Shown here: positions 22,428-24,029 of the stretch, piece after piece
Position numbering within the stretch: the stretch's first letter is position 1
Layout of the letters: every line of letters begins with the position of its first letter
Assembly: GCA_028714875.1 (NCBI GenBank)
Contig: JAQTLN010000016.1
Location: forward strand, 1-64,000
Reading direction: 5' to 3'
Length of the DNA: 64,000 bases
From: Gallionellaceae bacterium
GTDB lineage: Bacteria > Pseudomonadota > Gammaproteobacteria > Burkholderiales > Thiobacillaceae
Notes under the pieces: model-generated
Database searches by the model: none
Seen by the model: only the letters and a program-made list of their open reading frames with translations
What the model was told of the DNA's origin: nothing
Position numbers and translations under genes: made by a program

Positions 22428-22470
22428 CCTTCCCCGCCAACCGGACGGAGACAAATGCTCGAAGCAGGCA

Positions 22471-22542
22471 TGTAGCGCAGGCGTCTCGCCTGCTTTGTCC
22501 TTCTGATCAGGCCCTTGATGCAGGCGGGACGCCTGCGCCACA
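22471..22542. repeat. REP-like inverted repeat family (TGTAGCGCAGGCGTC...), copy 1
   Basis: tgtagcgcaggcgtctcgcctgc...gcaggcgggacgcctgcgccaca with central tcc ttctgatcaggccc. Confidence 0.88.
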
Positions 22543-22607
22543 AGCGCGCCAAGATGCGGTTCGCTCTGCTCACCACATCCTACGTTCTACGTTCTACGTT
22601 CATCGCC

Positions 22608-24029
22608 ATGTCGTTTCCAAACCCATCCAGCCCGCAAGCGGACCTCCTGCGCCGCACCCAATCCGCCGTCTGGCACCCGTGCACCCAGATGAAACACCTG
22701 GAGCGCACGCCGCCGCTGGCCATCGCCCGGGGCGAGGGGCCGTGGCTGATTGATCCCGATGGGCGGCGTTATCTGGATGCCATTTCCTCCTGGTGGGTCA
22801 ACCTGTTCGGCCACGCCAATCCACGGATCAACGCCGCGCTGATTGACCAGTTGTCCCGCATCGAGCACGTCATGCTCGCCGGCTGCACCCATGCGCCGGT
22901 GGTGGAGCTGTCGGAACGTCTGGGACGACTGACCGGGCTGGGCCATGCCTTCTATGGTTCGGATGGGGCCAGCGCCACCGAGATCGCCCTGAAGATGAGC
23001 TTTCACTTCTGGCGCAATAGCGGGCGGCCGGAGAAGACCGGCTTCATCTCCCTGAAGAACGGCTACCACGGCGAAACCCTGGGCGCCCTCTCGGTCACCG
23101 ACGTGGCTCTGTTCAAGGACACCTACGCACCGCTGCTGCGCCACAGCCACCAGGCGGTGAGCCCGGATGCGCGCCTGGCGGAACCGGGCGAGTCGGCGCA
23201 CGACTATGCGCTGCGCGCCGCCGCCGAGCTGGAAGCGCATCTGGCCGAACACGCCGACAGCACGGCGGCGATCATCCTGGAGCCGCTGGTGCAAGGCGCG
23301 GCCGGTATGGCCATGTATGCGCCGGTCTACCTGAAACGGGTACGCGAGCTTTGCGACCAATACAGCGTGCATCTGATCGCCGACGAAATCGCGGTCGGCT
23401 TTGGGCGCACGGGGACGATGTTCGCGTGCGAACAGGCCTTTCTCCCCTCCCCCTCCGGGGGAGAGGGGGCGGCGCTTGATCAATCGCTGGAGCCGGATTC
23501 GGCGCTTCTCCCTCTCCCCCGCCCTCCCCCGGAGGGGGAGGGAGTGAAAACCGCCGACTTCCTCTGCCTCTCCAAGGGCATCACCGGCGGCTATCTGCCA
23601 TTGTCCTGCGTGCTGACGACCGATCGGGTCTACGCTGCTTTCTACGGCGACGCGACGGCGCGCGGCTTCCTGCACTCGCATTCCTATACCGGCAACCCGC
23701 TTGCTTGCCGCGCCGCGCTGGCGGTGCTGGATATCTTCGAGCAGGACAAGGTGATTGAAACCAATCGCGCCAAGGCAGCCAGGTTCACGGAACTGCTGGC
23801 CGAGGTCGCCTCGCACCCGCGCGTCCGGAACTTTCGCCATCGCGGCATGATCTGGGCTTTCGACGTGGCGGATGCCGCGCCCGGTTTTTCCGAAGCATTC
23901 CACCGCCGCGCCCTGGCGCATGGCGTGTTCCTCCGCCCCATCGGCCACAGCGTTTATTTCATGCCGCCCTATGTCATCGAAGAAACTGAAATGCGCTTGC
24001 TGGCGAAGACCACCCTGGCTTGTTTGTAA
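22608..24029 (+). CDS. bioA: Adenosylmethionine-8-amino-7-oxononanoate aminotransferase with in-frame repeat insertion
   Basis: WHPCTQMKHLERTPPLAIARGEGPWLIDPDGRRYLDAISSWWVNLFGH..DEIAVGFGRTGTMFACEQA..DFLCLSKGITGGYLPLSCVLTT..HSHSYTGNPLACRAALAVLD. Confidence 0.95.
   Translation: MSFPNPSSPQADLLRRTQSAVWHPCTQMKHLERTPPLAIARGEGPWLIDPDGRRYLDAISSWWVNLFGHANPRINAALIDQLSRIEHVMLAGCTHAPVVELSERLGRLTGLGHAFYGSDGASATEIALKMSFHFWRNSGRPEKTGFISLKNGYHGETLGALSVTDVALFKDTYAPLLRHSHQAVSPDARLAEPGESAHDYALRAAAELEAHLAEHADSTAAIILEPLVQGAAGMAMYAPVYLKRVRELCDQYSVHLIADEIAVGFGRTGTMFACEQAFLPSPSGGEGAALDQSLEPDSALLPLPRPPPEGEGVKTADFLCLSKGITGGYLPLSCVLTTDRVYAAFYGDATARGFLHSHSYTGNPLACRAALAVLDIFEQDKVIETNRAKAARFTELLAEVASHPRVRNFRHRGMIWAFDVADAAPGFSEAFHRRALAHGVFLRPIGHSVYFMPPYVIEETEMRLLAKTTLACL
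23439..23555. repeat. GC-rich palindromic repeat inserted in frame in bioA
   Basis: tttctcccctccccctccgggggagaggggg...cttctccctctcccccgccctcccccggagggggagggag: two arms in inverted orientation, encoding FLPSPSGGEGAALDQSLEPDSALLPLPRPPPEGEGVKTA. Confidence 0.85.

Follow-up and report, generated by a model that had tools for sequence, protein, structure and literature searches.

The window analysed in this work, a stretch of 64,000 nucleotides from a genome here termed G000, contains a bioA gene whose open frame shows no interruption anywhere and may start further upstream, at a TTG at 22515 (Table 1). Its product scores 506 bits against the NCBIfam bioA model TIGR00508 (cut-off 405) in a match that falls into two stretches, the first of which stops at residue 277, where an insert starts. 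No second bioA match was found in G000 at E<=1e-60. The insert begins with a TTT codon at 23439 and ends with a GCC codon at 23555, its translation reading FLPSPSGGEGAALDQSLEPDSALLPLPRPPPEGEGVKTA between the left block GFGRTGTMFACEQA and the right block DFLCLSKG. The initial annotation of the locus, which had placed 39 residues at 23439-23555, proved exact to the codon, and the gain of about 35 residues that it had estimated agrees with a net difference of 35 (105 nt, in frame) from the loop of the congener G017. The inverted repeat that it had described was likewise recovered, with two arms of 25 nt each (23445-23469 and 23518-23542) that are 92% complementary and an RNA folding energy of -81 kcal/mol, where shuffled sequences average -62 (z -4.1). 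An Rfam search returned nothing near gathering score, and a structured RNA family was rejected, the weak Rfam matches being chance hairpin matches. The repeat element within the insert is estimated to span about 23439-23544, and the remainder (GTGAAAACCGCC) resembles native loop codons.

Table 1. Features of the bioA locus, in window coordinates.
Feature	Position	Strand	Basis or remark
bioA (adenosylmethionine--8-amino-7-oxononanoate transaminase)	22608..24029	+	TIGR00508 match; ATG start assumed
39-codon insert in place of the usual 4-codon loop	23439..23555	+	Congener comparison (L029, L031, L032, others), genome-wide matches
Large inverted repeat, two arms around GGCGCTTGATC-type spacer	23445..23542	.	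Arm pairing, RNA fold
First palindrome core CTCCCCCTCCGGGGGAG	23447..23463	+	Short-arm variant
Second palindrome core CTCCCCCGGAGGGGGAG	23524..23540	+	Core matches

What the initial annotation had reported as an in-frame repeat inside bioA turned out to be a copy of a palindromic repeat found throughout the genome. The core CTCCCCCNNNGGGGGAG, with at most one mismatch, occurs 87 times in the 4.08-Mb G000 genome and once for a reversed control, an abundance beyond chance, and the bioA insert DNA matches dozens of genomic sites (40/86 candidates scored), the best with 82% identity over 90 nt. Within the genus the number of cores per genome is patchy, ranging from 0 to 115, and outside the family the core is rare. 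Judged from its sequence, the element is best read as a composite palindrome of roughly 95-120 nt, REP/MITE-like, consisting of two hairpins, CTCCCTCCCCC-nnn-GGGGGAGGG, with CTCCCTCTCCCC / GGGGAGAGGGAG arms around a short spacer; the first core of the bioA copy is some 12 nt shorter than the GGGGGAGGGGCCGGGGGAGAGGG of other copies. Nested variants, in which GYRRVGASSE-type or LMEPLSNRLGGQTTP-type segments lengthen the palindrome, were observed in G000 (L157, L151 and, within hrpA, L154) and in kdsB (L179) and lpd (L181) of the congener G011, and look as if repeats enter repeats.

A census was carried out on a sample of copies, for which the sequence around 63 places was examined in fetched stretches and the coding signal on either side was scored from codon statistics that had been trained on the window, in place of a full annotation. 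At 33 of these places the raw call was an open frame flanked left and right by coding signal. Of these calls, two were removed: L135, an antisense artefact at an intergenic copy, and L151, in which two neighbouring ORFs had been joined. The remaining 31 are in-frame copies inside coding sequence, spread over 30 genes, so that the initial annotation had described one of about 31 cases; the remaining places are intergenic or at the ends of genes, and among all 63 no copy was seen to interrupt a gene from within. Hosts scoring above the NCBIfam cut-off include TrpC, alanine racemase (Alr), DNA polymerase I (PolA), Mpl, GlcE, CobQ, KdsB, FlgJ, MutS, AhbB, ThiO, MetG, HrpA, DnaX, Gmd, NadC, HemF, pyruvate:ferredoxin oxidoreductase and a ribosomal-protection-type ABC-F protein, as well as dihydrolipoyl dehydrogenase and AceF, which carry the insert in a linker. 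At L151 (G000:C5:165100-168100) the repeat fuses the end of a histidine-kinase-like ORF to the start of a substrate-binding-protein-like ORF in one frame.

Genic copies have on average 4.04 of the six frames open and intergenic copies 4.05, against 3.27 for shuffles, and this equality of genic and intergenic copies indicates that the element is stop-poor wherever it sits. Among long copies, the core-to-core span is divisible by three in 15 of 23 genic cases and in 4 of 19 intergenic ones (Fisher p 0.006). Both the poverty in stops and the bias in span fit blind insertion followed by selection. The element is read in all three frames among the in-frame copies, which argues against selection for one particular peptide.

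Comparison with relatives places the insert in a loop that is otherwise short. The closest bioA, that of G017 (93% identity across the left part), has the 4-residue loop GIRG, and loops of 4 residues in G006 and G018 and of 8 in G011 and G008 bear out the figure of about 4 residues for typical BioA that the initial annotation had given; with so short a loop in close relatives, an ancestral loop of the same length was rejected. The solved structure 3dod aligns by its residues 4-268 and 273-428 to query residues 12-276 and 316-461, and since the aligned parts end at 268 and resume at 273, it has 4 residues between the two stretches. G005 carries its own repeat in the same loop (59 residues, with ARPLPQEGRG near the end), as does G009 (20 residues, VLPPPPGEVRGEGSKTSDIA), and in several other genera of the family the loop is Pro/Gly-rich and 15-27 residues long. 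On a tree of 39 BioA sequences built with the insert excluded, the long or short state of the loop changes at least 11 times. G000, G005 and G009 fall into one supported clade of eight species (99/98) whose other members have 4-8 residues; the internal resolution of this clade is limited, so that gains and losses can be counted only approximately. In G009, bioA is split between two contigs at this very loop (C192 and C242; L033 and L132), which illustrates how repeats of this sort break up genes in draft assemblies.

The same comparison was extended to other hosts by searching chimeric queries, made of left flank, insert and right flank, against G017 and G011 and reading the flank-to-flank distances, and every difference in distance was a multiple of three. 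The site is short in one or both of these species in, for example, trpC, alr, mpl, glcE, kdsB, mutS, pyruvate:ferredoxin oxidoreductase, metG, gmd, nadC, hemF and aceF, and the alr and trpC inserts are common to G000 and G017. Elsewhere the site is filled by something else. In G011, cobQ holds the different repeat CGTCATTCCCGCGCAGGCGGGAATCC, which fits the CGTC-1 description of PMC3733652, polA and the ABC-F gene hold GTAGCCCGGATG-type repeats and flgJ a GTAGGAGCGGGCTTGCCCGC-type repeat, while a hyuA-like gene of G017 holds a CCCCCCTTTGGGAAAGGGGGG-type repeat, all of these replacements being themselves multicopy repeats in these genomes. In the more distant congener G012, which has the most copies, 16 of 34 examined places are in frame, and the polA, cobQ, kdsB, hyuA-like and norD-like sites are shared with G000. 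The hrpA site carries a GTAG-type repeat in G000 and G011 and a direct-repeat peptide, AEIRNPQSEIRNPKSEI, in G017 (L222). It may tentatively be proposed that such coding loops are standing docking sites at which unrelated palindromic families (CTCCCCC, GTAG and CGTC types, and others) replace one another, incoming repeats preferring to insert into, or recombine with, the resident palindrome. Were this so, protein loops would turn over by repeat-for-repeat exchange and not by independent hits followed by selection.

The gene around the insert is under purifying selection, with a pN/pS against G017 of 0.14 to the left of the insert and 0.16 to the right. K323, D259 and other site residues are invariant in 45 BioA sequences, and a good match to bioB is present in G000. 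In an AlphaFold2 model of BioA the fold is kept (TM 0.81 to 3du4), and pLDDT falls below 50 only at residues 283-311, the core of the insert, and in two other short segments, the insert core being flanked by a helix whose last residue is 278 and a strand that begins at 318, just ahead of the presumed catalytic K323. The insert is therefore predicted to be disordered; it is presumably translated, in an enzyme that probably remains active. Among the inserts clearly shared between species, only that of alr in G000 and G017 offers enough sites for a pN/pS estimate, and its value is 0.75 against 0.16-0.21 in the flanks, from few changes. Synonymous divergence in this alr insert (L003, L178) is pS 0.09 against 0.28-0.34 in the flanks, in a small sample, and its spacer of roughly 50 nt is near identical in the two genomes; constraint at the DNA level, conversion or later transfer are possible causes.

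We consider it highly probable (about 0.87) that the bioA insert is one copy of a dispersed palindromic repeat that is translated and tolerated in a permissive loop. The element would spread as DNA through the genus, its copies landing widely, and purifying selection would purge those that break genes, so that survivors would be either intergenic or of a net length divisible by three, free of stops and placed in loops able to tolerate a long flexible peptide. Such conditions would often be satisfied because the element is GC-rich and stop-poor, with about four of six frames open. The bioA copy lies in the turn that links the FACEQA helix to the strand running toward the presumed catalytic lysine (SKG), where it would be read as a Pro/Gly/Ser-rich disordered loop. 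Repeated strikes on the same loops would explain why, at one site, related species show a vacant loop, a further copy or a different family.

The initial annotation was right in its repeat, its reading frame and its likeness to Rickettsia elements, and went further than the data in reading the repeat as apparently exapted. Recruitment of the peptide to serve some function in BioA, and likewise in the other hosts, with its sequence kept by selection, gains something from the persistence of the alr and trpC inserts in two species and from the low synonymous divergence of the former, but peptides at the same site vary in sequence and length from species to species, many species have none, unrelated peptides fill the same loops, and the pN/pS of 0.75 in the alr insert and the predicted disorder of the BioA one point the same way; we regard such recruitment as unlikely. 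Tolerance suffices without any gained function, because the insert is predicted to be disordered, is missing in close relatives and finds in the alr insert a counterpart with the high pN/pS given above. The loops of 15-27 residues in several other genera of the family could suggest that the loop was long in the ancestor or lengthened by local sequence expansion, and not by an inserted repeat, which is nevertheless very improbable given the 4-8 residues of the nearest species and the dozens of genomic sites that match the insert DNA; the present tree, too, does not show a long loop at the base of the eight-species clade, although repeated gain and loss are possible.

Ribosomes are known to bypass hairpins at the byp elements of yeast mitochondria. 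The very stable mRNA hairpin of the insert, and the recurrence of hairpins at fixed coding sites, could be taken to mean that the insert is removed by RNA processing or skipped by the ribosome, leaving a product with a normal loop. Length and stops would then be unconstrained, whereas the congener gaps are without exception multiples of three, such multiples are over-represented among genic spans, none of the examined places was seen to hold an out-of-frame intragenic copy and the element is read in three different frames, so that we give this explanation very little credence. An insertion of 35 residues only a few residues ahead of the presumed catalytic lysine might also betray a decaying pseudogene left open by chance; the low pN/pS of both flanks, the single copy, the presence of bioB, the conserved PLP-site residues and the recurrence of the pattern in the usually essential polA, dnaX, metG, kdsB and hemF make this most unlikely. 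Strongly disfavoured, finally, is an assembly or binning error that put repeat DNA into genes: short repeats do break assemblies, as in the split bioA of G009, but about 31 sites retain the frame, and congener genomes assembled independently hold comparable in-frame insertions at these sites, some of them sharing the spacer.

The kind of element is already known. Rickettsia palindromic elements (RPE; Ogata 2000/2002, cited in PMC10969869, PMC3767692), as recounted in these later papers, are palindromes of about 100-150 nt that lie in frame within dozens of genes, where they occupy exposed loops and vary between species, with the RPE-4, RPE-6 and RPE-7 sites suggested as possible hot spots, and in-frame palindromic repeats are also known from Wolbachia (PMC10969869, PMC3767692). 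The likeness to RPE proposed in the initial annotation holds for the insertion habit: the bioA element is a composite palindrome, multicopy and in frame at 31 places in unrelated genes, the functions of these hosts being assigned from sequence. It differs in being GC-rich, with a CTCCCCC/GGGGGAG consensus, in belonging to a betaproteobacterial genus with genomes of 2-4.6 Mb, and in that several unrelated families alternate at the same loops. By analogy it would work like RPE, and no common descent is claimed. Palindromic dimers of the GTAG/CGTC REP type also lie in frame in known genes, including that of DNA polymerase I, in O. terrae, Thauera, Thioalkalivibrio and others, and recB of two Xanthomonas species has taken up different REPs at nearly the same position (Di Nocera et al. 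2013, PMC3733652). In contrast to these, the bioA element has neither tag and longer GC-only hairpins, 31 of its 63 sampled copies are intragenic, and its presence and absence were compared across congeners. The GTAG tag is absent from the bioA insert and from the ends of the copies inspected, and in place of the terminal CGTC tag, 8-9 bp stem starting with AT and CCA tail of the CGTC superfamily, the element ends in CTCCC/GGGAG; the G011 cobQ insert (CGTCATTCCCGCGCAGGCGGGAATCCA), by contrast, does fit these features. MITEs are short inverted-repeat elements that can likewise be fused in frame with genomic ORFs (PMC10969869); for the bioA element neither a consistent target-site duplication, in filled and empty sites that have since diverged, nor a matching transposase among the PF01797 genes examined was found.

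No description of the bioA repeat or of the genus was found in the literature searched, whose coverage was incomplete, and within it the repeat, its lineage, the scale of the phenomenon and the exchange of unrelated families at fixed loops all look new. In-frame palindromic repeats have so far been seen mainly as an oddity of Rickettsia, besides scattered intragenic REPs. Here about 31 sampled cases occur in one large betaproteobacterial genome, of an organism whose genome size and kin suggest a free-living life style, and sister species offer empty, filled and differently filled sites. To judge by the named relatives of its BioA, the organism is probably a betaproteobacterium near Thiobacillus/Hydrogenophilales. 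The natural pairs that such sites form bear on what a disordered insertion of 15-60 residues costs an essential enzyme, on where proteins tolerate insertions and on whether selfish repeats feed new sequence into proteins. They also caution against taking Pro/Gly-rich indels in these proteins, which are repeat DNA, for functional motifs.

As for mobility, transposition is the presumed mechanism of spread, against which it counts that a comparison of filled and empty sites in 17 genes, whose sites have diverged, revealed neither a consistent target-site duplication nor a consistent insertion target. G000 has five PF01797 (Y1/RAYT-like) genes, none of which adjoins any listed copy of the bioA palindrome, and a RAYT-driven REP was rejected for the bioA element on this ground. 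The best PF01797 match of the genome (G000:C16:75589-75927) lies 11.6 kb past the end of the window, near other inverted repeats of GAAGCCTCCGGCTTC type and not near the bioA repeat. Another PF01797 gene (G000:C22:10458-10691) lies about 70 nt from a copy of a GTAG-type repeat (C22:10338-10394), as expected of a REPtron for the GTAG-type family and not for the bioA family. The window itself carries, at 22470-22545 in the intergenic region upstream of bioA, a second palindromic dimer, GTAGCGCAGGCGTC..., which is GTAG-tagged and has 86 matches genome-wide, and copies of this GTAG-tagged family also form part of the open frame in nifJ-like, hyuB-like and hrpA genes of G000.
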